Source of the DNA: Albula goreensis
Lineage: Eukaryota; Chordata; Actinopteri; Albuliformes; Albulidae
Length of the DNA stretch: 64,000 bases
Assembly: GCA_022829145.1 (NCBI GenBank)
Contig: CM040744.1
Coordinates: 6,731,001 to 6,795,000 of the forward strand
Reading direction: 5' to 3'
The position numbers and the translations under genes were made by a program. Below, in pieces: positions 18,666-57,180 of the stretch. Under the pieces are notes generated by a model that was not told the DNA's origin, did no database searches, and worked only from the letters and a program-made list of their open reading frames with translations. Numbering within the stretch: the first letter of the stretch is position 1; every line of letters begins with the position of its first letter.

Positions 18666-21600
18666 ACCATCAGAACTACTACAAAGTGGTAATATGCCTT
18701 GTTTGTTGGTTGAGGAAACCCCTTTGTGTAACTTGCTGGTGACGCTCTGCAGCTTCTTGGTGGCGGCGCTGCTTTTCATGGTCAGGCTGAGAGTGTTTGC
18801 CTTGTTTTGGGCACAGGTTTTTTCATGCTGCTTTTTCAGTCCCTGACCCTTGGTGGACACCTCCTGCTTGAGGTCCAGCAGGTCCTGAATGGCTGCCTCT
18901 CCCTGCTTCTTGTTGGCACTAATCTTAGCCTGCAGTGATTTGCACGACTCCTGTGGAGAGGGTTATCATTTCAGTATGTAAAAACATTACGGAGAGTATG
19001 TCAGTTACATTGTTAGACTGTTCTGAATATGTATTATATATACATGGCTTATTTTTTTGTTTTTAAGATCTGTTGTAAATTGTTAACTTTCCCAGTACAT
19101 TTACCATGAATGACCACTCACTGTACAAATTGTTTCTTAAGAAAAGTGCTGCAATGTGTCCTAAGGCTAAATAAAGACCTGGGGATTTAACCACAGGTTT
19201 GTTAGTGTGGGGAATGTTTATAGTGATTCTCCTAACTCAGCTGGGCACACTCTGCCCTCTCAGAGAGGATTGCCTGATGTGTTCTGCTAGATATCATATA
19301 GCTAGGGGCTCCAGATCCTACATGTGAGTCTATCCTGCAGTGTGATATCAGATTTGGATTGTGCCAATGGTAACCTTGGCTGAAAGCCATATGGGGGGTG
19401 GACACATTATTGGCTATAGCGTCGCCCACAAGAGGAATGATTCATTGGGCAGGTTTGTCCTTGTCTCATGGCTCACTGCTGCTGGTCAGTCAACTGCCCA
19501 TAGCCTGCCTGCATAAAGGTGAACATGCAGGGTCTTCCTCCTGATTACTTCAATGCATGATCGACGTTTAGACTCCAGTGTGGAGACAGATATGCTAAGA
19601 GTCCTGCTGAAATATTTTCCTCTTTAGCACTCACCTCCATCTTCTGGATCTTCATCGCCAAGGTTTTGATTTCCGTAGAATCACGCTCATTACGGGCCTC
19701 CAGCATCTTATATCTAGCCTGGCCATCTTTTGAGGCCTCATGGTACAGGCTCTTGGCCTCTTGGATCTGCTGCCACATCTCCTCCAACTGTGCTCCCAGC
19801 TGCACAGACAGCTTGTTCTTCCTCTCACTTGTCTGTACATGCAGCAAAGGGTGAAAAAAAAACCCAAAAGACCCCAGTTCAGCTTTGACATCACAGCATT
19901 ATATCAGTCGATCCTTATTAGAGAACTAGTGATGCATATTATTCCCATACAATGTTTCACTTCCAACTCTCTTTCCCTGTTTGGCCATAGGTGTAACTGT
20001 GTCCTATTGTTGCAGCACCCTCCATTAATTTAGCATTGTGCAATCCAAGCAGGTTATGTTTCATGCACCACTTTGCGCCCTGATCACACCGCATTTATGA
20101 TATTGCCATGATTGAACATAAATTCCTCCCGGGCTTCCAATTCCACTGCACTGTTGTTCTCCTCCAGTGTCAGCTTTCTGCTCTGTTGCTCCATGCAGTC
20201 CTCCTGGTGCTGGGCAATAATTTGCTCCCTGCTCACACAGAAAGAAGAGAACAGCACTGGGATCAACCTAAGCTTTATTTCATTGAGATCACTACATTAC
20301 CTCTTTACGTGGCTATACTGGCTGGTTGTGCGAAAAAGTAAAATAAAACAGTAACGTTAGGAAAAGTATTTCCATTGCAGCCCTATGTTAAACCTACTCC
20401 TGAACCCTACAGCTTTTATTAGGATCATTACTGCACCTGAACTATATGATAAGCCCATAGATAATGTAGTCAAAATAAACATGGGTGCTACGTGTAAATA
20501 GGGGTGAATTCCAGTCTATTAGGCCAGTGGATATTGTCCACCTGGTGGTGCTACAAAGACTCAGAATTAAACTATTTCCACACACAATCAGGAGTACTTC
20601 ATAGAGCCCCAAAATTTTCCATGGACATGAAGCTTTAGTACACTGGAGCTTATCAACTGTGTGTTCATCACTTCCTTCTTTATTAACACACAAATACCAA
20701 CCTTGCGTAAAACGCTCCGTCGCTCTGCATGATGTGTATACAAAGTCATTCTAATTAGTTCAGTACAGAGGTCTGAGTCAACAAATGGCTGAATGTTGAG
20801 CAAAACTATCTGAGTTACATGGTAACACATTGAACTAATTATACGTTATCAATAAAATTTTTGCAGCTTCATTGTTGGCAAGAAGGTAACTGTCAATCTG
20901 CAATGCATGGTTTGTTCTGAAATCTCAAAAAAACATGGTCACCACATCACCATGGGGATGTTGGATCAAATACCAGCCAATCAAATGCCAATGGTGGATT
21001 ACTAAATAAACATGAAATTTAACACCGCTGAATTATTATCTTAAATTATAATTAATTTTACCAGCTGTTTAAATGGCCAAAGTACAAACTGCAAACTAAA
21101 TTCTACATTATTCAGTTTTTTGGGCTTAATGGAAACCATAATTTTTGCCTGCAGGTGCTTTGTTTAGTTTGACAATTATTATAATGCCACCAAAAATATT
21201 AATCCTGTGTCATGTATTGTACCCTTAATAATTTTTTACAATCCAGTATTCTCCAACTATGCTCTCATGTTACTGCCACTGTACCTCTATACAAGGTCCA
21301 ACTAAAGACAAAACACATGCATCACTCTCATGTGCTCGCCAGCAACCATTTTCCATACTACAGCCTACAACAATGTAGAAATCACATACACTGCATAGCT
21401 GTAATAATACTGATTTCTGTAGAGGTGTATATTTCACTGATAACAACTGGTAGCCTGTAAACTCATTTCCATGGACACCTCTTGAATTTTTAAATGAAAT
21501 CATAGAAACTTTCCTGATATGTCACCCCTTGTTCTTCCAGTCAAATAATTTTAAGATAATAACATTTAATTTGGATGTTCATTCAGATTTATGTAGGAAA

Positions 21601-23173
21601 TTTGTATACTACTACAGACTTACCGTTCAGTTTTGAAGTCAGCTCTGAGTTCATCCAGCTCAGCATTGCATTTCTGTTTCAGGGAAGCCAGTCTTTGACT
21701 GTGCTGCTCCTCAAGCTCCTTTATTTTTTGATGATGGGCGTGCAGTGCAAGGTCTGCTTGCTCCTTTGACTCAGCGAGGTGCTGCACCAGGTTCTGTGGT
21801 ACAGCCAGGCAAAGAGACAGCTCTCCACATGCAACACAAGTACATGATACTGTGGCTTACTGTCAACCTTTTGCAAATAAACCTTACAAAAAGTAGCTAA
21901 CATGCTGACTAGTGTCACCTAATTTAATTGAACTTGTTACGAACATATCTCCCTTTTGATAACTAGTGCATGTCAGGGTCTGATGCCCAGCAGAGACTTC
22001 AAGGGGTTGTTCGGAGGCAGGTATGAAACAAAAGTAGACCAACTAACTTACAATTACTACTTTTAATTATTATTTATTATTAAAATGATTCTTCAACACA
22101 CTGACAGATGTATAATGAGTGGAAGGTACATGTAGTAAGAATAAAATGATCGAGCTTAGTTAAGTAATACTGGTACTCATGAACTTGACCAACACAATAG
22201 TTAAAACAGTGTAAAATGTTCTATGCCCTCACGATAAAGAATAATTGCCTAATGTGACATAATGTCAGCCAAAATTGAACTGACCAATCAGGTGTGCACA
22301 GAATTCTATGCATCAACTACACTGCTCCTAACCTTGATGGCAGAGTCCTTTTGATCCATTACTCTTGCAAAAAAGTCTGTCTGAGTACATCAATGTCATG
22401 ATGCAGTTCCTGTGCCAGTGTGTGCCGGAGCACTGCCCTCCATTTCTCCATCAGCTTGAACTCATTCATGATAGACCTCTGCTCTTCCTTCCACAGTTTA
22501 TCCTGGTAGGGCAGGTCAGCCATGAAATGAAAGTGAGAGAAAAAAACAGGGAGTGAAATTAGGCAGGAGTGAAATTAGGTGACATGTTGCAGCATGTTGA
22601 CATATTATTGTAACATTTATTTACTGATTATGACAAATACTTTCACAATTTTAATTAAATGTATCACTGTGCCATTTTATTCATTTTAGACATCCCAGCA
22701 AAGACTGGAACACAGAAATACATAGACAAACAGACCGACTGACAGCCTTAACAATCATAATACACAAGAGTACATTTCTATACGCAATTACAAAACCAGA
22801 CTTCACCTGCCCGACAAAGTAATGAATGGTCTACAACTACAAATGTTAATACACCAAGGAAAATCCTATCAGGGTGAGACACTTCATTAAGGTGCTTTGA
22901 TTGGTTCACGCTGTGTTCTTATGAATGTAATTAGTTCAATCACTCAGTGAACCTGACATTTTGTTATGAAAAGGATAAGTCACTGATGCCTGTTTCCATG
23001 GTGAAATGGTATGACTGTGTTCTCACCTTGATGGAACGAGTGCTCAATTCCCCCTTCTCTTTGGCCATGGCCTCCTCTGCCAGGGCTCTCTGCTGCACAT
23101 AGACCAACCTCTCCTCCTCTGTCATGCCTGCTTTCTTCCCCCCGCCATTTTTCTTCCCTCCTTTCTTCGGCAT
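18666..23173 (-). pseudogene. DRC2/CCDC65-like gene, frameshifted and 3'-truncated
   Basis: DRC2 (CCDC65) is a coiled-coil subunit of the nexin-dynein regulatory complex in motile cilia. Six exons read on the minus strand: 23173-23027 (starts MPKKGGKKNGGGKKAG, then EEERLVYVQQRALAEEAMAK), 22502-22333, 21793-21624, 20228-20090, 19832-19635 and 18950 to about 18666. All have AG acceptors and GT donors and their phases join (0, 0, 0, 2, 0, 0). The family pattern is clear: the MPKK start, DIDVLRQTF, the TER-EQIIAQHQ junction, a MKIQKM helix, and SLTMKSSAATKKLQ near the end. Exon 2 has a run of six T where four keep the frame, giving a stop after about 87 codons. The last exon loses the expected 'LRLAEMCRKLE' segment and no further exon is seen. 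Human DRC2 is on chromosome 12, so this copy looks like a diverged, non-processed duplicate. An assembly error in the T run is possible. Confidence 0.7.
22333..22502 (-). pseudogene. DRC2-like exon 2 with +2 frameshift
   Basis: The exon is 170 nt, whereas its phases (0 in, 0 out) require 168. Translation runs DKLWKEEQRSIMNEFKLM and on to DIDVLRQTF, then goes out of frame in the T6 run (22369-22374, read as A on the plus strand) and stops at TAA (22361-22359). In the shifted frame the family continues as ARVMDQKDSAIK. Splice sites are intact. Confidence 0.75.
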
Positions 23174-23655
23174 GGCTGTCTCACCCTCTCACTTCAAAGC
23201 ACATTGCACTTGCTGTCAGGTAAACAGTTGACTGGCGCTCAAGAAATCTACAGCCCTTATGCCAGACAAACTAAGGGGCCTCATTTAGAAAACTTTTGTA
23301 CTTTATTTTATTTTTGTATTTTGAATGGCGAGTAGGTGAAAATACCAATCAAAAATGGTATTCATAAACCTTGGTTTTGGGGAATATTTCCTTGCTCTTC
23401 GCCAACTCTCTGATGTATGCACATGTCCTTGTGGCTGTGTTGTGTTACGTGATGCATTAAGAGAAGTGAAAGCTCACGAGAATTGAGTATGCGCTACACT
23501 TATACGAAAACAGGAACGCTGCTGTATTTTATTCGTGAGAAAACATTTTCCTGATCACTCAAAAGAGATGAAATGTAATTGGACAGTGTAAATATGTTTG
23601 TTAGGAAGTTCAAAGCTGACGGCAAAAGACGCATATCATCAATAAATAGCACACA
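23174..23655. promoter_or_regulatory. Upstream region of the DRC2-like gene
   Basis: Flanks the start codon of the DRC2-like gene. I see no TATA box and no convincing RFX X-box, which active ciliary genes usually carry. Low support for a functional promoter. Confidence 0.25.
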
Positions 23656-23659
23656 GTAA

Positions 23660-24260
23660 CACAAAATTCATATAAACAAAGATGTGTCGAAATATGTGAA
23701 ACGCAAGATGTGAACATAATGCAAGACACACCATGCCCTCTGAAAACCAGCTAGGTCACTTTTCAGCTGGGCATGGGCGTACCCCATCTCGAGGCGCGTC
23801 TCAACAAACCCCCTGAGCAGCAGCAAGGGGTCCATCAGCCCACTCCCCCAAAGCCTATTTCTTCTCATGACCCACATTGCCAACTTGGCCTGGCCAAACA
23901 AAACATTAATCAAGCAACATTTAAATCTATGTACAATCACCGAATCTCAAAACAGAACAAATTGATATTGGGCTCTAAATAGAAAATATGAATTGGAAGA
24001 ATATCTAGTAAACATTAAAAATACAAAACAAAGAGAGATCAGTGACCACAGCCTGGCCATTGAAAAGGGCCAACACAGACAAACTGGCTTGCCAGAAAGG
24101 CCGGGCCGTGTGACCAATGAAAGAGCACTAAGGCAAAGACAGATATTCACTTTCTTCTACATTGTACCAGTTGTGAAAAAACTGCCAAAAACAGTTGATG
24201 GAACAGCTAGAAGAGAAAATCAGTTTGTCTTCCCATGCAGTCTTGAAAACTGGAACATCA
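23660..24260. mobile_element. Decayed LINE-like fragments
   Basis: On the minus strand, 23668-23940 reads 'VDPLLLLRG'-like text (here DPLLLLRGFVETRLEMGYAH), which resembles the tail of Tx1/L1-type LINE proteins. On the plus strand, 23993-24250 reads SDHSLAIEKGQHRQ, similar to the 'SDHxLxIExGRH' segment near the C-terminus of other LINE proteins. Both are short and out of context. Identification is from memory of family patterns and is tentative. Confidence 0.35.
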
Positions 24261-26405
24261 AGTGACCCAGTGGCTCAATTTGCCCCAAGGTTGGTGACAC
24301 ATTTTACCGCAGAACCTCCATTTTCACAAAACTACTTGACACACTTCTGCTAACTCTTTAAGTTCATGACCTCAATTTGTAGCTTATACAGTGAACTTAT
24401 TCATTTCTGTTAAGATACAAGAATCATTATATTTTTAAAAATCATTATGCATTAATTTTGCAAGACACAAATCATTTTTGTGTTCCTGGTTTGCTTACCA
24501 CTCTTTCCACATGCTCATCTCCATCATAGAGTAAAATGAAATGCTCTTCATTAATCTGTGATCACACGACTAATTTTGTGTATGGGTGCCTAGATACAGG
24601 GGGTGGCTCATTTTACCCACTGGTGCGATTTACCCCGTTCTCCCCTGTAAGGCATACAATAAGGCATACATAATGGAAAAGACGTAAATGGTATTGCAAC
24701 ATTAAAACTAATGACAATTAAATAACAATGAAATTATTTTGGCTAAAACCCATGTGTACGTTGTTTGAAACTGAACTAACCACAGCTGTTCTGCCTTTGT
24801 TTGAAGACCGTCTTAAACTTTTCGTGCAGCAGGAGCGTTCACAGACTCCGGCACGACTGTTCATGACCAAATTAATTGCATGGTCAAATGTAAGATATAG
24901 ATAATAAGCCACCATGTACGCATCTTTGCGGGGGTTCCTATGACGCAGACATAGCGCTCATTCACTTGCGGACACTTGCGGAAAAATATTTTTGTGCACT
25001 GGTTCTAGGTATGAGATCGTGCACGTCCCTTACACCTAAGCATAAGTGCAAATAAAAAAACGCGATAGGTTACGCATAGATTAGATATTAGTTTATCCAG
25101 CACAATTGTTAGCATTTTGGGCAAACATGTGTTATGTTTTTTGCTTTTCCGCGGACTGTAATATTCGAGTGTACCTTGCTATTTACGTTTCTGGAAACAA
25201 AAACAAGTACGATAAATCATGAATAAGATTTAAGATATATTCTTATTTGCATGCATGTAAAGGCCAATTCAAGATTTCATATACAGCCCATCTTAACTTA
25301 CCTGTCATGTGTCAACTTTCTTCCTCTTATCTGATAAAACTGCACAGATAAACCAAGTTCTCGTTGAGCCCACCCCTCTTGTCTCGTGTAACCGTCACGT
25401 TTATGACGCGAGATTATTTGTAGAATACACATAACAGTTGCATCTGACGTCACTGATCAGATGTCGCTCAAAACATTTTATGTTGACAGCTATCAAGTCA
25501 AGATACCTGTCTACCAAGCTGGCATAGCTTGCCAAAGCAAAATCATTTCGATAGCTATTGATGGCTTATTAGTCCATTTTGGATTACTTTATTTTGGTGG
25601 AACCTAATGTTTATGAAGCCTTGTTTATAAATATTATTAATTGTGTTTGTTGTCCCATGTGATTCCTCATGTGATGAGGAGCCCTTGCTTCCTTCCGCAC
25701 TGCCAATTACGTACTGCCTGTGTTGTTGGAGGATTACAAAGTCAGCATATGCTTAATTATGGTTGACCAGGCATGGTCACTGTAGAGCGATAACTATAAC
25801 TTGCTTGAACCTTATCTTCTGCCAACAAGTCTGTGCCAGTTGTTGCCTCACAAAAATACTTACCTCTGATAATACCACGGCTGGGACATGAGCCCACAGA
25901 GGCATCATGGTAGCTATCCACTCGTCAACTTCCCCACACTGAAACTGAAGCCAAGCTAAATACCACACCTCAACAGTCTGCCACCACTGACCTCATCATA
26001 CTGGAGGTAAAGTTTGACACTGACTACATCAAACACATAAAATGTTTAACATTTGAACACATTTGAATACCAATTCTAACACATTTGAAATTGAACAATT
26101 TATTATTTTAAAAGAAATCAGAAAAACAGAAAACCATACATAAGTTGGGGGACAAACAAAAAAAACATTCTGATGCAGCGAGATTTATGTTTTCCTTGGC
26201 TCTTGGATGACACATGCTGAAACAGAATCTCTTTGTCTTGTGGAGCATTGCAAGAAATGTATTATGTTTTATGATACAGAAATACAAAGGTTTCATTTTT
26301 TGGTTTTACTGGCTAAGCAGTTAAGCTATTCACATGCTCCTGTGAATTCCTGGCTGCCTTTGTAGAATTTTCATTTGCAAGGGGCTTGGCTGATATAAAA
26401 CCCTA
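24261..26405. other. Intergenic, no gene seen
   Basis: AT-rich; short open frames without domains. Nothing recognised between the LINE-like fragments and the tetranucleotide array. Confidence 0.5.
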
Positions 26406-26406
26406 C

Positions 26407-26481
<75 letters not shown>

Positions 26482-26562
26482 CATCCATCCATCCATCCAT
26501 CCATCCATCCATCCATCCATCCATCCATCCATCCATCCATCCATCCATCCATCCATCTATTC
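26406..26562. repeat. (CTAT)n-(CCAT)n compound microsatellite
   Basis: A pure CTAT/ATCT array switches near 26480 to a pure CCAT/ATCC array, about 150 bp in all. The single point of change suggests one base substitution spread by slippage. It lies about 400 bp upstream of the paip1 coding start. Confidence 0.97.
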
Positions 26563-26958
26563 TAGGCTAGGCTGCCTTGTTCTGACTTCTGAACTGACTT
26601 CTGCCTACCCTAACCCTGTTCCCCCACCCCAGTCCTCTAGTGGTCGCCATTGCGCCAAGGCTCTTTCAGCTTTTCCCTGGCGGTCCAGGAGCTTCCGGAT
26701 CTATTTGTTGTTGTTTTTGTAGGAAGTTGGACGTATAAAGGCTTAAATGTTCGAAAATCACATTTAAATGTAGGGAGTTGTCCTGAAAGTTAAAACTGGA
26801 ATATAAGTGTAATTTAAGGGGAATGGTAAGAACCACGAAGTTGTCGTAACTGGACTTTAAATCGGGCGCTGTTGAAATTCGCAAACTGTCATTTACTTGG
26901 AGCCAGTCCGAATGTGGATCTGAGTGAGACGTACCACTAGGCCTTTCCACGCGTGGGT
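26563..26958 (+). promoter_or_regulatory. paip1: paip1 promoter / 5' leader region
   Basis: The 390 bp before the first recognisable paip1 codon are more balanced in composition than the upstream DNA. I see no TATA box at a sensible distance. The transcription start cannot be placed. An in-frame TAG (26938-26940) separates the leader from the coding frame. Confidence 0.4.
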
Positions 26959-26991
26959 ATTGCAGATAATTTTGATCGAGCTCCCGGAGCT

Positions 26992-29900
26992 ATGAACCGG
27001 GTGAACCCCAATAACCCAGGCCTCAGAGAACAGGTCAGCGGCCAGCTGTCGGAAGCAGGCGACGCTGAGGTGACTGTCTTCAGTCAACGTGAGCCCCTCA
27101 GACAGCCTCGGACTTCTCCACCAATATTGGAGGACAGCTCGAGGGCAGCCGGCGGTGAGATTCTTCTTTATAGCTTTTATACAAAATATAGAAGTCATGT
27201 GCCCTATTTTCTGTCACTAGCCAAGGTAGCACGAAAACATGGCTAGCTAGCTAATGTGATTATTGTTATCTTGAGGGCAGTGTTCTGTTGGGTCCGGGTC
27301 TCCGGATTCTTTTCCCCTCATCTGACAGCTTAGGCTATGACTGATCAGCTTGTGTTAAAAATATAAACAACCAAAAGAACTGAAACATATGATGTTAAGA
27401 ACAACCTTTTTAGAAATACACACAAGTGGCACATTTCTGCTTGTAAGAAGGGCGTAAAGCAAAGATAATTACTTATAACTAGGCCGTTATATTACCATCA
27501 CCAGCTCCTCCCGGTTGCAGATGTACGGTATGTATTTGCAGTGTAAACATGTGACTAGGAATTAGCACCATTTTAACCGATTTTTCTGTATATTTCATGC
27601 AACTGCACGTTTAATCAGAGGGAAGAAGACCGTCACAAGTTGCAAGTAACAACAGAGATGCAGTGCAAGTGGATGGCGTAATTAATTCCAATTTATCGGT
27701 CAATGCGGCAGAATTCTACCCATCAGGTTATAACCCGCAAGTAAGTGGTGTAGCGTAAGGTATTGGACTATGTTGGCGAATCACATAATTGTTTATGTCA
27801 ATGCTGCATGTCTCAGCCGTTTTGGGTTTTGTTGTGAGGCATAGAGCTGTACCCTGATTTTGAATATGTTTTGTACTGATCAGGCAATGATGGCTTGATC
27901 TAAACATGTTTGTGTTTATAAGTGATTTAAAAAGAACAGCTTCCTTGAATGAAAAAGTTTTCATCTATTTTAATAATTTCCTGCTGGATGCTGTATGATA
28001 AAGTGACGGTCAGTTGGTTACATTACTCCAAAACACACAGACTGCATATTCTAGGTCTGCCACATCAATCTCAGTCAGTCCATAGTGCATGCTCTTAATG
28101 TTATGTCCCTCTCTATGGCACTTTAAAAGGAGCCTGTTTATGAGGATGGTGAGGATCATTATTACCCTGAGACCCTGGCAGAGCTGGTGCAGGACATCCT
28201 CAGCCACCTCAACTCCTCACCAGGGTCTTTTGAGACAGACATTGAGCAGATAACATTTCACGCTGGATGGGTGGGTCACCACTGAGGAGACGCTGCGGGA
28301 ACTCGTGGAACTCATTTACACTCAGGTATGTCAATGGATATTGTGTTCTGTAGATAGTGGTGTCAGCTATAACTGAAGCCATGTTCCTATGAGAGTTCAG
28401 TTAGGACACCTTGCCACAGTGTATTGGTCAATTTATGGAAGCTTCTTCCACTCTCCTTCCCCTTCTCACATTACTTTAGACATGCAACTGTAGTTCAAAA
28501 CTACAGTTCAAAACATGCAACTCACTATTTGTTGAAGTGGATTGTAGAGGGGATTAACCACTGATAGAAATTGAACTCCAGCAGTACTAGAAAAGAGTAA
28601 AGACAGACTGATGTATCAACCCATTGGTGCCAAACTGGAGCACTGACCTATTTGTTGCCACAGCTACTTTCTGTCCCCCTTGGTATAAATATCAGTTTAC
28701 TTTATGACTTGTCTTGACATGGTTTTAATAACTTTATGAATCTGTGGAAAGGGCAGATCTCTGGGAAGCTGTAGATGTAGATGACAGAAAATAGTTCAAC
28801 TCAGGGACAGTGTTGATAAGAGGGGACAGTGAAACTGTTGGAGGACAGGTCTTAAAAGGGAATGAGTTATGTATAAAACCTATAAAATTGATACAGTATT
28901 CCCTGGTGATAATACTGGTGATTAAATTTGATTTGTCATCATAGTTGGTTGTGGTCAAAAGAAGCCTTAATGTGGGCACATGTTCATGAAAATCGTCTAT
29001 TGCAACAAAATGTCACACTGTAGATGGTCTACATTGATATTATGGTTTTACTTTTTTTGAACTGAGCATTCTGTCATCTGGAATTGGAAATAATGCCTCT
29101 AAAGCACTGTAGTTTCAACCAGTTCTGGTTTTAGTCTTCTGAGTAGTTTAGCGTACAGTCAGTGACCTGTGCTTAAGGACATTGTTGACTGTTTTTTCCT
29201 TGTATACCTTAACTTCCCAGCAGAAATAAATGGACCTCCACCAAAAAGAAGAAAACAGTAGTGTATAGATTTCTCAGTGATTTTTGGTCTTTGAAGTTAT
29301 GAATATAAAAGGCCATACATGGAACACAAGAAAAAAGACTGGATGAAGAAAGACAAATATTGCATGCCTTTAAAATCATTGTCATTGTTGGGAAATCTTA
29401 ATGCCGTTGAGCTCAGACATAAAATCGTGGTGCCCTTGAGAATAGGGAATCCTGTTACATACCAAATTGTTCCTGTTGCAGTCCACCTCCATCCCAAACT
29501 TTTCTTACACTGGAGCACGGCTCTGCAACCATCTGTCGCGTCATCTGACCCTCAATTCACCTGGTAACAACTTCCGACAGCTGCTTCTTCACAGGTCTGT
29601 TCTTGTGTCGTCTCCACCTACACGTTTGCTGCCATTTACGATGCGCTTGTTAACCGACCCTCTAAGACATTCTCCCATTTGACCAGGTGCCAGGCAGAGT
29701 TTGATCAGAGAGACCAGGCAGTGAGAGGGGATGAGGCCACACAGAAGAGTTTCCACTCATATGTGCTCTTCCTTGGGGAGCTCTACCTAAACTTAGAGGT
29801 GAGGAGTCTCCCACACCCACCTCAAAGAGACTGAATTCAATATCCTGTTTACTGGGTCTGTGGAGTGTAGTGCTGTAGTTGAAGAGCTGGGCTAGTAAAG

Positions 29901-32900
29901 AAGGTGTTGGTTCAAACAGTGGGTAGGCCACTGTCATTTGGTCCAGCAGAAGGGAATTTAACCTGAACTGCATTAACCATGGAAACAAATAATATAATGT
30001 AAACGTGGTATTTTACTTGTGCTTTGCACAATCGCACAGTGCATTAAAATAACATGTCCAAATGAATCTCAGAATTGTCTGAGATGAAGGATAGCTGTTC
30101 AGAAAGTGATGGAATTGTTATTTTGTTATTTATACCTGTCAGAATGTAAGTGGCACAGAAATTTCCCTCCCTCTTGTTCAGATTAAGGGACCCACGATGC
30201 GGGCAGAGATCCTGCTCACTGCCTTGAGGAAATTGTTGGACAGCCTGTTCTCCAACCCTGAGGACAGGAACCTCATCTGTGCTGTAAAACTACTGAAGGT
30301 GAAGCTCACTAAGACAGCCTTTACACATGAGTATTTTTCATTGCTCAAAACAGGCGTTGCATGGAAGGCTGTTATTTATGACAGCCTGAAATTAACACTG
30401 TTGTTACCTTAATTAAGAAAATAAGTAAACTAAATAAAAACACTGAAGGAAATTAAGGTATGGAAGGATTAAGGAAAATCCTAAGAGGGGTAATGCTGAC
30501 CTCCAGCTGTTGAGTCTCAGTATGGCCGAGACTTATTTTTGTTTCAGGATTACCTGACAGCAGCTCAGGGTGTCACTCATTTAAATGTTTTCAGAGAGTA
30601 GTTTCTTCTTTGGACTACAAGCAGGCTCAGAGGAATAAGGAAACTTACATAAGCAAGATATTCCCACCCTGCTGTAGCATGGCTTATCCCTTTATTGTTG
30701 GTTTATTGTTTGTTTACCTTCTGCAAAATGATCTTCTGTCCTCTTAAAATAGTGAAAAATACTTTTAACTTATCTTTAGCAAGTGTGTGTGTCACTATCA
30801 CAGGCTTGGGTTCCTGCTCTATGTGATTGGACAGAGTTGGGTCACCTGACAGTTGGTGTTGATCCTATCTCATCTCTGCAGTTAACAGGTTCTGTTCTGG
30901 AGGATACCTGGAAGGAGAAGGGCAGTCCAGACATGGATGAGCTGGTGAAGAAAATCGAGATCATCTTGCTAGATGCCTCCTGCAGCAGGTGAGTGGACAC
31001 GTTTGATCACTGCAAGTGAGCACTTTGGTGTTTATTTTCCTCTGTGCTGAAACATCCGTTCTCCTTAGGGACGTCAGGCAGATGCTGCTAAAGCTGGTGG
31101 AGCTGAGGTCCAGTGACTGGGGCAGAGTCCAAGGCGCAGCCGCCACCAGCGAAGCCACACCGGACAACGACCCCAATTACTTCATGGTGAGAGGGAGTAT
31201 GACAAACGAAACATTTTAAAAAAAATCGGCATCACAACAATTGCTCATGGAAATGATCTGAAAACCTTCAATTCGGGTGTTTTTCTTTTCAGTATTGCAA
31301 ATGAAACACTGAATTTAGTGTCTTTTACTTTGGCAATACATGTTTGGTTTGTGATGTACTCATATCTTGGTCTTGGAGAAAATGGAGTGAATTTTGTCTT
31401 GTGTCTCGTGCCTTTGCTTCTAGAACGAGCCCACATTTTACATGGCAGATGGCACTCCATTTACTGCTGCTGATCCAGGTGAGTATTCCTCTTGACCTGA
31501 ACACATCAGCAACAGAACCATTCAGACACTTTTTGTCATATCAACAGAACTTGCAAGGACTTTTGTCTTCTTATCCTCAACCAAACTTAACATACAAGAA
31601 AGCATTTGAAACCTGATCATACATACATAGCTTTCTTATAGCTCAGTTCACAGTTTTTGCTGTAGCATAATAATTATGTAAATAAGATTTCAAAATGAAA
31701 CAAGAGAAAATAACATATTCTGAGGTCATAATCCAAACACTAACCACCTTATCGTGTTATGACTTTCTGAAATGTTTGTCTAGGGGTAGGGCAGCAAAAG
31801 TGTTTTTTTTGGGTGTGGCTAGTCCACAAGAATCTATAATGGTTTTACCTTTACATAAATTATTGTGTAAAACAAACATATATGATGTTATGCAATCAAT
31901 AATCTCAGCCACGCATAATTGGAAATTGCTGTTAATTTGCCGTGTGGTATCTCCATTGGTCAGCTAAAACTTATGGAATAGTTGTTGAAAAACAGCATGA
32001 GAGATCAGCTTTTATCGGCTTAGATATGCATGTCCTGTGATGATATTATTGGAAGAGGTAAAGCAGCAACCAGTTAGAGCTTCCATTCCACCTTCATGTG
32101 TTTTCCAGAGTACTCTGAAAAATACCAAGAAATACTGGATCGAGAGGACTACTTCCCAGACCCTTATGAAGAAAATGGCAATGAGCAGTAAGTATCTGTG
32201 TATCTTCATTCTTTTTTAATCATTGATGTATCATCTCAGTATTGCTAAAACAATGTGAAAGTGATTTGGTTTAGAAATAAACTGTAATCATTAGCTATCC
32301 AGACAAACCCGCTGGCCTCTCCCTCGTGCATGACCTCGACAGTGACCTACCAGATGATTCTTCTGGAAGCTCAGCAGAGCATGCTGGTCACATGATATGG
32401 CGGCAATGTAGGGTCTTAAGGTCAGCTTTTTGGGGCCGGCAGGGCAGGGTTAGTATAATTCTTCAGCAGACAATGGCTGCGGGCGGAGCCTGGGCCCCCG
32501 ATTGGGATTAGTCAGCAAACGGACTGGAAAGAGGCTTAGCCAGGCTTAACTCCTCCCACCCACCCATTGCCTGCTCGAATTTTCAAAGCATTCACAAACC
32601 ACAGCCTGAATATTTCACTGTACATTAAAGATTTTCTCATAGTGCCATGTCAATGATATAACAATGAAAAGATATCCATAGCAATTATTTTCTATCTTCA
32701 AGTGTACCAGTACAAATCTTGTAAAATGCAGTTTCATTGAAATGTCAATAGTTTAACTGTGACCTTGAAAAACAGGAAATAGAAATATTTGAAATAGTAA
32801 TGTACTGGTTTCAGAATTTGGGTATTTATGATGGAGAATATGAGTGGTTTCAAAATCGCCCTGGAGCAAGGGATTTGTAACCTGTTGAAAAGGATTACCT

Positions 32901-33404
32901 CCTGTATTCACTAGAGGGAGCTTTTTCACCAATAATTGAGTAGATTGCAGAAGGAAATACATGGCCTAGAACATTCAGGATGTTCATGATTAAATGCTAA
33001 AATTCACTCCTACATGAGAAGGAGCCACCCCAATTTATTTTGTCAGGGTTCCAGTTTTTCTTAAAATTCTGTGGCATTCCTCACAACACAGAATTTAGTG
33101 CCTTTTGTGAATTACTGTCAGTCAAAATGATGCATTTTGCTTTCATTGAAGAAATAAGTGAGTCGCACATGAATTAATGCTTTTACAGGCAGATACTTAA
33201 TTCATTGCCCTCAAACACTGCAGTTGTGTCAGTTGGTCATTTCATTTGTTAAAATTTTAATATTTATATTATTCATATTATTAATAAAATCAATATTGTG
33301 TCTGTGTCTGCAGATATGATGAGTATGAAAATGGGATGGATCCTGAGATTGAAGAAGCATATGAAACATTCTGCTTGGAATCAGAGCAGAAAAGGAAACA
33401 ATAA
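26992..33404 (+). CDS. paip1: paip1, PABP-interacting protein 1 (one frameshift)
   Basis: PAIP1 binds poly(A)-binding protein and eIF4A/eIF3 in the cytoplasm and stimulates translation. Eleven exons: 26992-27154, 27619-27740, 28130-28325, 29482-29594, 29687-29798, 30182-30298, 30882-30988, 31069-31186, 31424-31478, 32109-32187, 33314-33404. All have AG/GT borders and phases that join. Exon 2 carries the PAM2 motif that binds the PABC domain (NLSVNAAEFYPSGY). Exons 3-8 form the MIF4G-like HEAT domain (SIPNFSYTGARLCNHL, FLGELYLNLE, LTGSVLEDTWKEKG, MLLKLVELRSS), and the acidic end is DPEIEEAYETFCLESEQKRK. With exon 3 corrected by one base it would be 423 residues from this ATG, against 479 in human; the glycine-rich N-terminus is short. 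Homology begins 11 codons upstream of the chosen ATG, where the start position reads ATT. Neighbour order paip1-C5orf34 matches human. Confidence 0.92.
28130..28325 (+). CDS. paip1: paip1 exon 3 with +1 frameshift
   Basis: The exon begins and ends in phase 0, yet is 196 nt. It reads EPVYEDGEDHYYPETLAELV and on to ETDIEQ, and then the frame must advance by one base to continue as LDGWVTTEETLRELVELIYT. The original frame stops at TGA 28283-28285; the later frame is closed upstream by TAA at 28251-28253. The extra base therefore lies between 28251 and 28284. Read literally, the protein would end at about residue 146, before most of the MIF4G domain. Confidence 0.9.
29868..29995 (+). repeat. Decayed tRNA-derived SINE
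   Basis: Same family as the copy at 7225-7375: 'gttgaagagctgggct', 'gttggttcaaa' and 'tttaacctgaactgc' occur in the expected order. It lies in paip1 intron 5. Confidence 0.5.
32190..33313 (+). other. paip1 intron 10, nothing recognised
   Basis: The last paip1 intron. A GC-richer patch at 32290-32570 (with GGGGCCGGCAGGGCAGGG) stands out but has no open frame or repeat I can name. Confidence 0.4.
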
Positions 33405-34171
33405 AGGAGAGAGTAAAACAAACGATAAAGGAGAGCTTGAAACTATGCTAGTTCACTAGTGAAAGCAGCTTGTACATTCAACCAGCTGGAGGATTTGTGA
33501 CCTGTTTAAAAATTAGGCAAACAACATGTTCAAAGAAGTGTTAGCAAAGCTTTAAAAAAGTATGTGCTCATGGTTAGCACCTCCTGGGTCTTTTGTTTGA
33601 GTTTTTATATGGCTGGGATTTATGTTCAGAGTAAGGCAACCTGGTGATGCACCTATGGTTGCTCCTCAAAGATAAAATACAGTTCTGAGTTTGAAATTTG
33701 GGGTTGGAAGTTTGTGACTGCTTATGTCACCCCTTTCAGTATCATTATAATTTCTCTTCCTGAAACTCTTGACTGTTTGTGCTTGGATGTGTGGGTTTTT
33801 AAAGACTTTATAAAGGCACTGGACAATAGGGTATTATCATCAATTGTTAATGTTGATTATATGGATACAACATTATTAAAACAAAGATGGAGCGTCTGCT
33901 TCAGCTGCAGGAAGTACAGAAAGAGGAAGGCACTGACTAACTTCTGTTGTAGACAACATTCTTAGGTTCCTTAGTTTGTTGTCAAAACTATAATTGCACT
34001 GTGCATTCAAAATTATTTCTGGTGCATACAAAAGCTGGTGTCATACAAATGGCTGGAAAGTAACTATAGTAATGGTAACACACAAGTGTATAGGCATAGT
34101 CAAAAAAATTGCAACAGTATAACATATATTAAGGGCAAGAAATGGTGTTGAGCTTGTAGGGGAAATCAGTA

Positions 34172-34177
34172 AATAAA
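34172..34177 (+). terminator. paip1: paip1 proximal poly(A) signal
   Basis: AATAAA 768 bp after the paip1 stop codon. The 3' untranslated region 33405-34171 has no other feature I can name. Confidence 0.4.
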
Positions 34178-34628
34178 AAGTCTAATACTACTTGTGGTAT
34201 TGATTTTCCTGCAGACCCACACTCTATAAGTACTTACTGTTTTCCCAAAGGCATCAGTTTTAAACAGTTGCTGCATACATCTACTGCATACATCTCATCT
34301 GGATAGACTAGAGTGTACTGTGGCTTGGAGTCTGTCCTAAAGTTCTGGCACCAATGAAGGAATCTCACACAAAGGAATGTTTTATTTATATTTTTGTCAG
34401 TGTAAATAAATGTACAGCACTGTTTGGCTGCAATAAATACTTTCTAAAAAGAATATTAAGCTGTGAAAAGATTCTCCTTTCACTTTGTAATCAGTGCATA
34501 TTCAGTGTATATTTGTTATTAACTGAGTGTTTTTATGTGGTTCAGGTGATGTAAGTGAAGTATGTGATATTGTTTGGCTGCGGTATGGCTCTGTCTTACT
34601 TTAGCATCACATTTTGTAGATGTGTTTA

Positions 34629-34634
34629 AATAAA
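34629..34634 (+). terminator. paip1: paip1 distal poly(A) signal
   Basis: AATAAA followed within 10 bp by GTGTT, a downstream GU-rich element. This is the better of the two candidate ends of the paip1 transcript and lies 300 bp before the next promoter. Confidence 0.5.
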
Positions 34635-34936
34635 AGTGTTCACATTTACACATGACTTTTCCTCATGTTCATTATGAGGTAGTCACACAATATAACGATT
34701 TAAATACACAGTTTACCCTGCAAGATAACGATTTAAATATATGGTTGATATAAGTTAATGTGTGCCATAACACGACACATTTCCGTGCAACCAAATATTT
34801 CAGGGCTCTTTTTTCTGTTTCAAACTCCGTGGTCTCTGTTCTGCCTTACAAGAGCCCCTCACTCTTCAGTGCAGTAAATAGAATGGACAACAGATTCAAT
34901 AACAGCTGACTTGTTAAGTTTCCCCGAGTCCCCTCC

Positions 34937-34950
34937 GTCACCAGGGTAAC
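34937..34950. promoter_or_regulatory. RFX-type X-box upstream of C5orf34
   Basis: GTCACCAGGGTAAC fits the X-box consensus RYYRYY-N(1-3)-RRNRAC as an imperfect palindrome (GTCACC / GGTAAC around AG). It lies about 245 bp before the ATG and directly upstream of two CCAAT boxes. RFX factors bind such sites in promoters of ciliary genes. Confidence 0.5.
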
Positions 34951-34961
34951 CTCTTTCTCAA

Positions 34962-34997
34962 CCAATGACAAGCACGTTTGTTCAACGATTATCCAAT
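34962..34997 (+). promoter_or_regulatory. Paired CCAAT boxes of the C5orf34 promoter
   Basis: CCAAT at 34962-34966 and 34993-34997, same orientation, 31 bp apart, about three helical turns. NF-Y commonly binds such pairs in TATA-less, growth-related promoters. No TATA box is visible. Confidence 0.5.
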
Positions 34998-35196
34998 GAA
35001 ATCGCAGCTCGTTACATCATGTCTGAAGCGGGAAGTTTATCTCAGAAAACATTCGAATCCATATTGATAACCAAAGACGTGTTTGTGTACTTATTTACTC
35101 CAAAACAACGGGCTATCTTAACGTTATAACATTTTCTATGTATTAGCGGTGTAGTAACTAGCCAACTATTGAGATAGTGTGCTATCTTGAGGGAAC

Positions 35197-38100
35197 ATGG
35201 CCGTCATCCGTATGATCATTATGTACGAGGATGAGTCCCTAGAGGTATGCTACGGCGATGGATCGTGTTTGCAGCTGTCTCCCTGTGGTTCAGAATTTCT
35301 TTTGGAGAAAACCATTCCGTCCACCGCTCACCCTCTGCATCCAGCTGAAAAAATTCGTCAAAGAACACGCTTCGTCACCAGCATCCATAAAGTAAATAAC
35401 TTCACGTTTGCCATGTTTGTAGAGAAATGCCCAAATAAAAACTCAACGTTATGTGGTGCTGTAACTCGCAATTTTTATGTATTTATTTCTAATGTCGATA
35501 GACACAAGAAAATAGTTTTGAAAGATATTTAATAACGTCATATTTTGCCATAGGTTTGGTCGGCTCATAATTTATAATTATGTCACACAGGAATGGCATG
35601 TAGAGGTGTTCATTTATACATTGAAGAAACTTGGCTGCTCTTTTGTGTAGGAATTAATGGTTCAGGCGCTGGAGTTCCGGAACAGATTTGCTACAAGGCC
35701 CTACCTTCCCGAAGAGCTTATCCCAGAACAGAGCAGAACGGTATAGATGACTTCCATTATTACTTTTGGTCATGCATGAAATTAATCCCTATAAATTGCC
35801 CATTGACAGTTCAATTATGCTCCATCCTTCTTTTGTTATCTAGCAATAATGTCTACTGGTTTAATCGTTAAAAAATGACTATAACAATAATACATATGAA
35901 AAATGTAATTTGTTTTATTATTGCTAATTTAAGTATTAACAACCATAAATGTTTGGTTGTAAGTCTGCTGGCAGAAATAAATGACTTTTCTATCTTTATT
36001 CTCTTTCCCTCATAGCATTTCTTCACTGACATTTCAGTGATAGAATGGCCTGCCTCTCATTCCTGTGGGTTAGAGTTTGGTTCAAGCGGTGAGGCAATAA
36101 TATCCTCTGTGGATGGGAATGCAAGCCTCCTCCTATCTCCTTCCAGGGAGGAGTTCTCAGTGGAGTTCCTCTGCAGAGCAAGTCAGAATGAGCACAGAAG
36201 ACAGTGTGTCAGGATCCAGAGCAGAAGCCAGTCTCAAAGCATGTGAAAAGCAGTCCTACTGCAGGAGTCTTAAACTTGCAGCAGACCACAGCGTTGACAC
36301 CAAGCATCGCTAGAGATAAGGAAAGTGGACAGAAGGGTGTGGATTCGCTCAGATCACAGCCGAGAGAGAGGCATCTGTACACCCGGGTGATCCAGCACCA
36401 TTCTTGCTCCTGTCCACCGCCTGAATGGAGATACCCATTGACTTTAGCCCTCAGCCTCTGCAATTCCTCACAGGAAAAGGTCAATGTAGATGAGGGAACA
36501 GGGGCTACAGAAAGAGGTCCAAACTGTACTCCCATCACAAGTTTGACCACAGGGGAGAAGTGTCACCTTCCAGAAGCCCTCCCGCTCAGTTGCCCCTCAC
36601 CACATCAACACAGGTCTGGCCACAAACAAGCACACACACACTCACACATACATTCCTACATCTTAAACACACATTTATACCTGAAATGATGTGCTTTTCC
36701 TGACCCACGTACACACACACACACACAGTCCAGGTTGTGCTATAGCACATCTGGGTACTTCATATGTTTGAGCTCAGATACAGCAGCCCCAGCCAGCGTG
36801 TTATTTGTTGTAATCTGTTGTTTTTTTCATGTTTAGATGGAACTTCAGGGACTCACTCCAAAAAGAGCAGGATCCAGAGCAGAATTTGCGGACAGAGCTT
36901 GTTAAAATTTTGTGGTGCCAAGGAATTGTTTACCGGTACGTCCCCCCCCCCACCCCCCCATGTTCCTTTTTTTAACTTGACATGGAGGGCAGTTTGGTAA
37001 GGCTAAAACTTCATTGCAGCCTTATATGATTACATTCCATTAAGTCTAATAACAGAGAAGCTTTAGTAGACTATCCGATACCGTAAGAGTGGTCTGTGCA
37101 AACCAAGGGAATACGATGGTCAAAGATGAATAATCGGCTGTTTTACTCTAACTGCAAACAGTGGAAGGGTCATTTTTGGAAGATGAGCAATGGAGGTTTA
37201 AAATGACAAAAATAAATGCTGCTTATTCAATGTAAATGCAGGTGAAGCAGGAGATGTACATTTTATACAGAATACTTTAATTCCCTGTTCGTCTCACCAT
37301 TTTGCAATGGCCAGATGAGATTATCAGCCTGTTCCATACTCTATCCTCCATCAAATGGGGGGGGGGGGCACTACATGGTTATGTGAGGGCTTTTGGATAG
37401 GCATAAAATGCATTCAGTCTCTGAGAGGTAGTGCTAGTCATGACTGTGATTGCTTTGAGTTGTGCTGAGCGTGTCCTCGTCTCGCCTGTCCTTCAGACTC
37501 ATTAATGGGGCGATCACCGTCATAGAGGTCAGTCCGGGAGATGGCTCTCTCATCAGGTCAAAAGGAGCGGTGGCAAATTACTTCACCCATCACGCAGCTA
37601 GGCCCAGCCCGGGACAGGTATGTCACAAAGAGCCGCACAGATTTATGGTTCAGGAATGGGACGATCTCCAGCATTTCCAATGGCTAATGAACCTGTTGGG
37701 TTCTTGGAAGTGCTGATACTGCTATATTTTGTGTGTGGGAAAAACCAATGTTTTTAAAGTACTTTCAAAAAGGTAATTGAAAATGTTTGACTTTTGCATA
37801 TTTCAAAGGCTTTCACTGGTGATAGATAAAAATGTTACTTTGAGAAGGAGCTGCTCCACTCCTTGTATTTATGAGTACTTGTTTTGAGCACCTTATTTTT
37901 CTTTCTTTCCCTGTTGTTCATGATGACTCAAGCCTGAAATGTCATTCCATTTTCCCAATTTTTGTGGTAGTAGAAACAATAAACACATTTGTGACAATGT
38001 GCACCTATTTTCACAGAGCGATGAGAAAACCTACTTCATTAACAATCTCCCTCCAGACGTACCTGGGCAGGTGTACTCTGTGTGCTCTGTGGTTACCCGT

Positions 38101-41100
38101 GCCAGCAGGTGAAATGACCATTTGATTTTTATTTATGTTATTTGTTTATTAATTTAAGAGAGATTCATTTAAATTTAATCATTTGTATCATCAAGTTTAA
38201 TCATTCTGTATGGTTCACCACAGTCTGGCTTCTCACCTCCCTGGGTTACCCTGCTTTGGTTTATTCAAATAGAAAGCTAAATGCAAGCTGCTAGAATAGC
38301 TTCTGCCTGATGTTGAAATACGCTGACATAATTACTTGATAATCTTGACTGGAGATCTTTATGGCAGGATCCTGAAGTGCTACAATCAGGCCAGACTTTC
38401 CCTAAAGCTCCCCAACTCCAACTGCTGCTGGAGGGAGGTAAGACTTCCATTAGTAAGTCTTAGTAGGCTGTCTGTGACCTTTACCACTCAGGTGTACATG
38501 CAATGGAAAGCTTCCAATGCCATAAAACCTTTATAGACCCATAAACCTGTGTCAGATTACCCTTTTAATGCAAAAATCCACACAAAGAAATGTCTTAGTA
38601 CTGCATAAGAGCTATCTTACATACTATCAGCATTATCGTGAAACAGGAAATGCCACCCCTGCTAATGGAGGCCTGTCACTCACAGGCCGAGGTGACATTT
38701 ACAGCGCAGTCAGAAGCTGGCTTTACGCTCAGCTCAAAATAGCCGGTGAGTTCATAATGACAGTCACAGTACAGTATTAGTTTCATTGCAAAGTGAAAAT
38801 TTAAAATGTTTCAACTGTAAAACAGTACTGTATATCCCAGCAGGCAGGTGCAAATATGATTGTCATACACTGGTAGGCCTAACACAAATGGAGGGCCGAG
38901 TCACATATTTAGGAAAAAATGGATCCATGTGGGAAGAGATGCTACCTTCCAGAAGCCCATTTTATTCCAATTTTTTGTGTCACAGTTTATTCCACGCCTG
39001 ATTGAGGCAAGGGCCTGTACTGACTGAATACCCTTGAACTTTATTTTTCATGAGAAGGACACACAAACATCGACATTCCAAGCCCAACCTACAATTAAAC
39101 TGTTTGTACACACAATTTTTTCCCTGCTTTTCTGTCTCTATCTAATGGCTAACCTGTATGGGTGAGAAAAGAATTGTTACCGAGGTCTTTGATTAATTCA
39201 TTGTGGAAGTGCAAAAGTTCCCTAGTTACCTTTGACATTTGCAGAAAAAAGAACTTTGTCATGGGAAGCATTTAAAGATGCACAAATATTTTATTAATCC
39301 AATGTCTGAAAACACTATGAGAAAAGTTTATTTAAAATACAACTGCAGTTTTGCTTAGAAATGTCCTCATCTCACTTATTGGATGATCATGTTGTGAACA
39401 AAGGTAAGGAAGGCCAGCAAACTCAGAAGGTCCAATAAAATGTATGGGTTCCAAGACCGTGGGCCTTTCCTTTTGCATTAAGCATTTTTTCCCCCCACTT
39501 GATTTTGAGCTCATGATGGTAGTGTGTGCTTAGGACACTTCAGCACATTATGCTGCTTCCATTGGCTTCTCATATTCTATCACATTAACACCACTTTTGC
39601 ATAATCGGGGAATAGGGGAACCAAATGCATGTAAATTTTGCCCCATAAAAGGCAAATTGTGTCAGAAAATACAGTCGAGCTTTGTTTTGCTAGGTGTTTT
39701 CCTCACCTGTCTGCAGGAGTGCAGTGTATTGGACCCCTCGGTACTGATCCAGGAAGCTCACGTTGCGGGCTCAGGCCAATTCATGGCTTTTTCCGATGGA
39801 AGAGTCAATGTGATTTTTCTGGATGGGGTAACATTGCAGATGATGTGGAACTTCAATACCAGTACAAAAACACAGGTATATAGACATACCAACTCCGGTA
39901 AACAAAGACATGTATGTAGATGGACCAACATAGATATAAAGACAATATATATGGAAAATACTTGTACACAGACACAGAAACAACACAAGCACCCCAACAC
40001 CATGGCACATCTATCTCACCTTTACTACATATATACATGTGTTAATTATTGCATTAAAATTTTCTCTGTCATGAAATCCACTTGTGCTGTGCCAGGGGGC
40101 AGACAGGGCATCCCAGCCTCTTCTAGAAGTACAGCAGCCATGTGGCTGGTGCCAGCTCACCCTGCCCAGCGGCCAGCGCCAGCTCCTACAGCTGCAGGTA
40201 CCTGGGCCCTACAGCAGGTACAAATGGGTCTCCTTTCACTGTTCTGTGCAACGCAGAGGTAAATGTTGGGGTAAGCTGTTTAGCGAGCATGGTGTCCTCT
40301 TTGTCCATAGGTATGTGTCTGCAGCAGTGCAGTGGTGTCAATGGGTTGAGGGAAATAAACAGAATGAGGAAGAGGCAAGCAGTGCAGCCCGGTCCATTGA
40401 CCCTGGACAGAGCTGGTATGAAGCAAAAAAAGCTACCATAACCTGTATATACTGTGTGTGTTTTTTATGTTGTATAAAATAGGCATACGTGATTTATTTT
40501 AAAGGATGCTCTTTATCAGAAATATTTGGGATATTGTTTCAGACAGTTGCACAATAAAGAAAAGTGAAACATTTTCCTGTTCAATAATAACACAGCAGTT
40601 CAGTATCGATGGCTGCTGTATTGTTGTTGGTGTTCTTGATACCACACTGTGCTGGATTTTTTTTTCTGTTCATCATTTTTATCTTGTAAGCGAGGCTCTG
40701 GCTTAAGACAATTACTTTTTCAATCCCAATTCAATTTAAAATGATCCTCCTTCCATTTTGTTCATGATTATTTGTATTTCGTTTATGACCTAGGTCCATT
40801 GTTGCAGAACTGGAGAAGATCAAAAGGTTTAACTGTATCCTTTGTAATGATCAGCGGTGATCTGTCACTGACCAGCATGTGGATGCGTGTGACACACTGC
40901 AGCCGTTTCCTTTAACGAACCTCACCAGTCCTGTTGGAGCACAGTGGGCTGCTGGGGTCTGTGGGGGACTCTGCAGGGAGCACGGGTGCTGTCTCCCACG
41001 GTTTCCCCAGAGCGGATGCTGTGGTAGTGACTGAGAACAGCATTGCTGAGGCCCTACAGAAGACGTCCAAAACCATCCAAGAAATCGAGAAGCTCTTGTC

Positions 41101-41134
41101 AGTCAGATCATCTGCTCATCACAGTACTGAATGA
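35197..41134 (+). CDS. C5orf34 orthologue (one frameshift)
   Basis: Orthologue of human C5orf34, a protein of unknown role with conserved N- and C-terminal domains. Twelve exons: 35197-35391, 35651-35740, 36016-36613, 36837-36935, 37497-37617, 38017-38108, 38368-38437, 39717-39875, 40096-40217, 40311-40415, 40794-40834, 40929-41134. Splice sites and phases join throughout. Diagnostic matches are YEDESLEV and [11 protein letters not shown] (exon 1), [14 protein letters not shown] (exon 3), NYFTHH (exon 5), [13 protein letters not shown] (exon 6), [20 protein letters not shown] (exon 8), [17 protein letters not shown] (exon 9) and [14 protein letters not shown] (exon 11). With the missing base in exon 3 counted, the length is 632 residues, against about 638 in human. 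The break in exon 3 is described separately. The upstream X-box hints at a ciliary or centriolar setting, which the protein sequence alone does not show. Confidence 0.93.
36016..36613 (+). CDS. C5orf34 exon 3 with net -1 frameshift
   Basis: It begins [16 protein letters not shown] and continues to [13 protein letters not shown], the conserved second block. This frame ends at TGA 36243-36245. The family continues in another frame with [20 protein letters not shown] and [13 protein letters not shown] up to the donor. The second frame is closed upstream by TGA 36189-36191, so the indel lies between 36190 and 36244. The exon is 598 nt, where 599 (or 596) would keep the phases. No intron fits in the 50-bp interval. 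Confidence 0.9.
36636..36727. repeat. Short (AC)n runs in C5orf34 intron 3
   Basis: Two interrupted AC/ACAC tracts just after exon 3. They make the end of the long open frame 36204-36689 look longer than the real exon. Confidence 0.8.
36941..36958. repeat. Poly-C tract in C5orf34 intron 4
   Basis: A C-run broken by one A, beginning a few bases after the donor at 36936. Such runs are prone to sequencing length error but this one is non-coding. Confidence 0.85.
37358..37369. repeat. Poly-G tract in C5orf34 intron 4
   Basis: A run of about 11-12 G in the same intron as the poly-C tract; also non-coding. Confidence 0.85.
38438..39716 (+). other. C5orf34 intron 7, nothing recognised
   Basis: AT-rich intron with short random open frames and no recognisable repeat. 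Confidence 0.5.
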
Positions 41135-42774: not shown

Positions 42775-42999
42775 CCAGATACCCTGTGAGTGGTGCTTGT
42801 CGCTCAGAGAGGAAGGAAAGAGCTTTAGCTTTGCTGTATGGAATAGGCAAATAGAAGAGATGGAGTGGATTGTACTTCCTGTGATTACCGCAGTGGAGCT
42901 GATCCACAGAGAGGGGAAGTAAATACCAACAGACGGCTGAAAAACATACTGACACATCTGCAGGAGCACACATCCAGATGCAGTGGGCCCTCCATCATG
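42775..42999 (+). other. fyb1: fyb1 exon 1, mainly 5' UTR
   Basis: The end is well supported: CATCATG followed by the strong donor GTGAGT at 43000. The last three bases are the ATG, in phase 0 with the CAG CAG CCG that opens exon 2, giving M-QQPSNVKNIMARFG. The 5' limit is a guess. If this exon were skipped, translation could start at the ATG at 46796 within exon 2. Confidence 0.5.
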
Positions 43000-54900: not shown

Positions 54901-57180
54901 ATGTCATTCTATGAATTCAAGAATTGTGAAAGTCACTTCTTTTTTTCTCCTCTCATGTTAACAGGATAGTGCAAGTGATGGTGAAATGTATGAGGATCTT
55001 GAGGAGAGATGGTGAGAGAAATTCACACCTGAATCTCATCAATTTCATCAAGTTTTGAGACTTAAAGATTGGCTTAGACTTGTCAAATGTAAATGATAAA
55101 CAAATTAATATCTCAACTCTATATTGCTAACCACAGTCGTGTATTACTGTAATTCACGAGTATGCAGTTTAGTCTATCTTTCAACCTTTTATGGAACATT
55201 TGCATAGAGTGTGCCTCCACAGCAATGTTTTTTGATGAATAATTATCAAATACTAATGATGCTGTCCAGATCTTAAGTTTCACTGCACTCCATACCCACT
55301 AACCACACCATAAATTGAGAAAAGGACCTATTCCACCCAGCACACCCCATTCAAATTCCTACTCTCTAGCAGGTGCAATAGATCCTTAGATGGTAAGAAA
55401 AAAATGTCTCAGCCGGAGCTTCTTCCCCTGGGGCTATACAAAGACTGAACACGATCCACCATTCCTAAGCCACCCTTACTGGGCCTACAGCTAACTCAAA
55501 CATGCTCACTCAGCATGGTGGCTACTGACACTTTGTCCTGTGAACCTCTAAATATGTATATGTGATGTTGCGTTGGTTTTTTTTTCTGACCTGTTAGCCT
55601 GGTTGTGTGGCCGTTAAGTGCGTCATATTTGCAACAGATGCATTTGTGCCAAGGTCACAAGGTCACTAATTATATCCATACCATGTGCAGGAATTCAAAG
55701 GAGTCGAAAGAAAAAGCAAAGAAGCGTGAGAAAGAGGAGAAGAAACGGCTTGAGCAGGAGAAGAAAGAGCAAAAAGAAAGAGAGAAGAAAGAACAGGAGA
55801 TCAGGAAGAGATTCAAGGTGACTTGGAATGGGCATGGCACATTAATGAAAGCAGAGACACGATTTAGCTTGATATGACAGCCCTAATCATAACATTAACA
55901 GACAATAAATTTTGTTTGTTTATTAATCCTTGTCATTGACATTATCTCATTCATGATAATGTCAAATGACATTCATTTACACTATCATCATAATTGTGTT
56001 GTGCATGAATTTATCGATATTGTCCATCTCCCTGTTTGCAGCTGTCAGGCCCCATACAGGTGATTCACAACGCCAAAGTCAGGACAGATTGCAAAGGGGG
56101 CAAGAACGACCTGTCAGTAAAGCAAGGGGACCTCATTGAAATTGTCCGCGTTACAGACAATCCTGGTGGGCGCTGGCTAGGCAGAACGAGAGATGGCTCA
56201 TGTGAGTAGCTCCTCTTCCTCTTCTTCTGTATTATATATGTATATAAATGGAGTACATTGTGGTGAGTATGGTACCTGTGTGTTTCTTCAGATGGTTATG
56301 TGAAGATTGAATCAGTAGAGATCGACTATGATGATCTGAAACGGAAGAATCAAGGGGAGCCGCTCCCGAGTGAAGGCCCCGAGCTGTATGATGACGTGGG
56401 CACCTTGGATAACAGGTGGTGTCTGGGTCTCAATTCCAAGGCAAAGCATGGTGGGATATGAAACCTGTGTAACTGTCCCTTAGAATGCAAAGGCCATTAG
56501 GCAATATGGAGAAGAGAAGTTATATTTTCAAAACTTTGTTTGCTTTATTGGTATCACAAATATTTGTGGTATAGTTAAGGTATGCCCATGACAGTTTGAC
56601 ATTTAGTAATGTCTGCTTTGAATTTTGTCTTTCTGTTTCAGTGGCCTCACAGGTAAAGCTGGTAAGCCTTATTTTGTTTATTAACCGGCATGTCCACTCT
56701 TTTTAGCTAAACATCAGACTAAAATTCACAGAGTAACACTAAAACAATGTCATTCATTTTTGTTTGAAAAAATATCACTTTGAAACTGTAAAGACATTGA
56801 ATTGAATGGCAGCGAAAAAAGGAAACTAATTTGGGACTGAAGCTGATATAGAGTAATGAGATGGGGAAGTCATGCTTAAAAAAAGCAAACCACAAGCACG
56901 CGCGGTGTGAGAAAAACAGCCCTTCCCTATTCCTATCAGCGATGATACCCCCGATGCCAGATGAAGACGGTGAAATCTACGACGATCTGGATGATCCAAA
57001 ACTGAGTCTTGGGTGAGAATTTTACAGTTTTAAAGTGTTGCATTGTGTTTCATGATTCTGTGTGGCAGTGTCTGCACAGTGTGGTTGGTGTTGCTTAAGC
57101 ATCTGCATAAATCCTCTTACACAGTACAATTTGTTTGTAAATCAGACTTACAATTCTTGTTTTGATTTAAATAGTAAAGG

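Follow-up and report, generated by a model that had tools for sequence, protein, structure and literature searches.

Long-read errors reportedly can cause frameshifts that pseudogenize genes (PMC12007338). The window considered here, a stretch of 64,000 nucleotides from Albula goreensis (C4:6731001-6795000, in an assembly of 932 Mb and 208 contigs), resembles cases of residual long-read indel errors that mimic pseudogenes, as it contains small frame breaks in conserved genes, some of them at homopolymers and with similar breaks elsewhere in the assembly; it differs from them in that two of its breaks lie outside long homopolymers. Recent unitary pseudogenes provide another comparison, since there, too, one disabling indel interrupts a gene formerly under constraint, but here three to four unrelated neighbors are involved together, similar breaks occur elsewhere, and paip1 and fyb1 are duplicated. 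A decaying duplicate gene, in turn, is matched by the DRC2-like gene of the window (a diverged, shortened copy with a fuller copy elsewhere), although the latter has just one break in the six exons found.

The genes named in an earlier note on this DNA were rebuilt from the sequence and each reading frame was tested. Frame breaks are present in all four modeled genes of the window (DRC2-like, paip1, C5orf34, and fyb1), and all fall within about 30 kb. Gene names are based on Pfam and PDB matches, apart from fyb1, whose name follows the earlier note together with an hSH3 family match, and the genes rictor and FGF10 discussed below, which are probable identifications. One small break each in the DRC2-like gene, paip1, and C5orf34 had been reported before, and all three are indeed there. 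In paip1, C5orf34, and fyb1 there is one net break each; apart from it, the joined models are free of premature stops and keep their splice sites. Homopolymers are found at or around two of the four breaks (T6 in the DRC2-like gene; C4, C5, and C7 in fyb1), while those of paip1 and C5orf34 lie outside long homopolymers. The breaks are most likely residual indel errors in the consensus, and the genes would then be mostly whole in the animal. Assembly error had also been the first choice of the earlier note and stands as such; its supporting argument, that three broken genes adjoin an unbroken fyb1, fails, since fyb1 has a break as well.

The paip1 gene (26992..33404, plus strand) comprises 11 exons with GT-AG borders throughout and stays open to the stop past its single break. 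Just 5' of it, at 26410-26560, lies an extended tract of tetranucleotide repeats (CTAT followed by CATC). The break was previously placed at 28251-28284; the frame switches at 28253..28262, within exon 3 (28130-28325), so that exons 1-2 share one frame with the beginning of this exon, whereas its remainder is in a different frame together with exons 4-11. Exon 3 has 196 bases, one above a whole number of codons, vs 198 bases in a single frame for the corresponding exon of a second paip1 gene at C25:3.72 Mb. This duplicate (paip1b) holds five of the ten matches of the genome search; its exons 3-10 (eight exons) join into one frame with no break, and its last exon and exons 1-2 are recognizable. 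On the 3' side of the break, the window gene is identical to human PAIP1 (PDB) in 116 of 167 aligned columns. Compared with the duplicate, it encodes the same residue in 194 of 255 codons after the break (dN 0.14, dS 1.23) vs 26 of 42 codons before the break in exon 3, where synonymous sites are saturated. Judging from these values, calculated for paip1 alone, the stretch after the break has been under strong constraint, with no sign of relaxation, and no more stops were found in the models of paip1, C5orf34, or fyb1. Nothing relevant to a zebrafish paip1 knockout appeared among the titles of the literature matches listed. The constraint past the paip1 break, together with similar breaks in other conserved genes, makes assembly error the best supported explanation.

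The C5orf34 gene (35197..41134, plus strand) has 12 exons and the four Pfam domains of its family. With an X placed at the break, one domain lies before it, one spans it, and two follow. The earlier location of the break, 36190..36244, holds: one net frame change is present there, within a weakly conserved stretch of exon 3 that could contain two changes instead of one. An additional exon considered at 38647-38745 was dropped, the flanking exons joining directly in phase. Across the genome the C-terminal domain family has a single match, the window gene itself, and consequently no second C5orf34 was found; the block on C25 that contains the paip1 and fyb1 duplicates likewise yielded no match to this family.

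As modeled, fyb1 (42997..61332, plus strand) has 18 exons and 2186 coding bases, which is indivisible by three; exon 2 has 982 bases and the acceptor of exon 14 is at 60113. The two halves of exon 3 (51809-51925) read in different frames: the first half is in frame with exons 1-2, and the second half with exons 4-18 up to the stop. The break lies at 51864..about 51900 in a C-rich stretch with the runs mentioned above. The gene had been credited with 2205 coding bases and no break. The former number may result from a start 19 bases further 5', which makes the length divisible by three and leaves the frame unrepaired. The duplicate at C25:3.86-3.87 Mb (fyb1b) gives one of the three hSH3 matches of the genome, along with the window gene and a locus on C13. 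It codes for both halves of exon 3 in one frame, and the break in the window gene is therefore strongly supported. The duplicate is itself frame-changed in exon 2, in an interval containing a run of six C. The block that carries both duplicates, C25:3.72-3.87 Mb, is apparently the paired block of the window. Open frames on the minus strand at 49775-51030 resemble retroelement sequences, presumably reverse transcriptase and RNase H, and a longer retroelement-like element of similar kind is found upstream on C4.

A broader measure of the break rate comes from 11 hand-picked control genes with about 35.6 kb of coding sequence (lengths entered by hand), among them fyb1b, which was retrieved for another purpose and included afterwards. 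Two of the 11 are broken, with three breaks in total, or approximately one per 12 kb of coding sequence. The nine genes without a break are two matches to PF06529 (Vert_IL3-reg_TF), presumably NFIL3-type genes, three APC-type genes, rictor, FGF10, paip1b, and a drc2 gene on C14. FGF10 and drc2 were read exon by exon, and each of the three FGF10 exons is in one frame. The broken controls are fyb1b (one place) and the APC copy on C1 (two places), the only one of four APC-type exons with a break. The C1 copy has open frames of 1233 and 341 amino acids vs 2162 in its partner at C4:10.09 Mb, and its frame changes, read by eye, fall within 1.2 kb (C1:61110600-61111800). The rictor gene begins 3 kb beyond the window and shows no break in about 5.1 kb, with each exon match in one frame. 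Its automatic model is in phase up to exon 31 and then has one phase break followed by four stops due to an omitted small exon; this joint was settled by eye, and the last one, for which the model offers a poor donor, is tentative.

Relative to the controls, breaks are enriched in the four genes of the window (6.4 kb), with P values of 0.0023 (Poisson) and 0.013 (conditional, allowing for rate uncertainty), both to be read in the light of a window picked as odd-looking. Leaving out the DRC2-like gene raises the values to 0.011 (Poisson) or 0.033 (conditional), again for a window chosen for its oddness. Since the window was reported for this reason and the genome contains about 14,500 windows of its length, such a cluster is unsurprising. 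Residual indels would be spread over the assembly, with the hand-picked controls suggesting approximately one in every 12 kb of conserved coding sequence, and the window would hold several of them by chance or else sit in a less well polished tract, though the adjoining rictor gene and FGF10 nearby show no break. Repeat pairs between the window and its flanks, a possible measure of the local indel load, were absent at the limits used.

The single-exon protocadherin genes provide another yardstick. They form clusters at C2:0.63-1.12 Mb (at least 91 exons) and C6:25.00-25.33 Mb (at least 53 exons). Among the 150 exons scored out of 200 candidates, those with an open frame of less than 750 amino acids, defined as short, make up 37 of the 91 on C2, 3 of the 53 on C6, and 1 of the 6 at other locations; such exons could be genuine pseudogenes. 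In six C2 copies at least 90% identical to an open neighbor, the main coding stretch (end changes excluded) shows nine one-base losses, no one-base gains, and two two-base changes. A seventh copy (73% identity) was excluded from this count; the script count including it is 14, 6, and 4, respectively. In two C2 copies the missing base is at an identical position, and this loss could be inherited. Similar breaks thus affect unrelated conserved genes (APC on C1, fyb1b on C25, and protocadherins on C2), while the 50 of 53 long exons in the C6 cluster and the nine of 11 unbroken controls indicate that poor quality is not general in the assembly. Taken by itself, the C6 protocadherin rate is too low for error to account for four breaks (P about 2e-5); a higher rate follows from the broader set of controls. 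Near the window, at C4:6855.6-6895.0 kb, lies a large satellite array of approximately 176-bp units in both orientations. In this array, which is about 95-134 kb away from the midpoint of the interval reported before, shortening among the matched units affects G5 in 48 of 128, T6 in 45 of 185, and A5 in 0 of 196. The shortened runs are only suggestive of indel error, as run lengths can vary naturally.

The DRC2-like gene (18723..23173, minus strand) departs from the other three. Its six recognizable exons correspond to residues 9-342 of the 484 of human DRC2. The break is, as previously reported, at the A6/T6 run at 22369-22374, within exon 2 (22333..22502, minus strand), and the alignment to DRC2 chains continues on either side. 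The gene had been regarded as otherwise complete, which does not apply to its last third: a search of the window with a human C-terminal query yielded no exon for this part. It shares 114 of 334 positions (34%) with human DRC2, and identity declines along the gene from 38/80 to 21/84. A fuller, better conserved drc2 gene is located at C14:33.745-33.752 Mb, with eight exon matches that reach the C-terminal end and an exon 2 in one frame; further partial matches occur at C1:34.08 Mb and C14:8.60 Mb. Parts are accordingly missing in the window that exist in a fuller copy elsewhere, and the low identity, the missing C-terminus, and the C14 gene together identify the DRC2-like gene as an extra, diverged, and shortened copy. 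A case in which this gene is truly a decaying duplicate and only the remaining breaks are assembly errors draws on the same evidence. It is a serious candidate, if a little short of an even chance, and is a form of the explanation by consensus errors, compatible with it. On the other side, the six exons keep frame and borders except for one break, so that the gene may be a working short paralog. For the break in the DRC2-like gene, true decay and assembly error seem about as likely.

That all breaks are real, i.e., that three to four adjacent genes have recently lost their function, either fixed or on one haplotype, is improbable. The clustering of the breaks within about 30 kb beside the unbroken rictor and FGF10 genes would fit such a loss, and the duplicates of paip1 and fyb1 could make it tolerable. 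It would nevertheless require one fresh lesion in each of four unrelated genes, with no other decay in paip1, C5orf34, and fyb1; C5orf34 has just its one match in the genome, the fyb1 duplicate is broken itself, and similar breaks are present far away in the C1 APC copy and the C2 protocadherins. Four simultaneous real losses are much less likely than consensus errors. The parallel gene loss raised in the earlier note, which was to be checked by a search for intact second copies, is weakened by the paip1 gene on C25 and the fuller drc2 gene on C14, which mean that the functions of paip1 and drc2 need not be lost; for C5orf34, the search revealed no second copy.

It is similarly doubtful that any of the genes regain their frame through other splice sites or through short introns missed in the models. 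Among GT/GC-AG pairs of at least 20 bases with donors at 36101-36259, many would keep the frame of C5orf34 exon 3; the most plausible pair on visual inspection (36182-36264, 83 bases) combines a good acceptor with a weak donor. In fyb1, the second half of exon 3 could conceivably be preceded directly by an acceptor. Such introns are contradicted by the duplicates of fyb1 and paip1, which code for the same exons in one frame; C5orf34, for which no duplicate was found, may still contain a short intron. Least probable of all is that the breaks are real and lie on one haplotype or young non-recombining stretch (e.g., sex-linked) of about 30 kb, where all four genes are in the course of joint loss, tolerated owing to the paip1 and fyb1 duplicates on C25.

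Residual consensus errors remain the preferred explanation for the frame breaks of the window. If the breaks were taken at face value, losses of paip1, C5orf34, and fyb1 would be catalogued for this fish. As the assembly contains small frame breaks in several places, calls of gene loss made from it should be backed by reads or transcripts beforehand.
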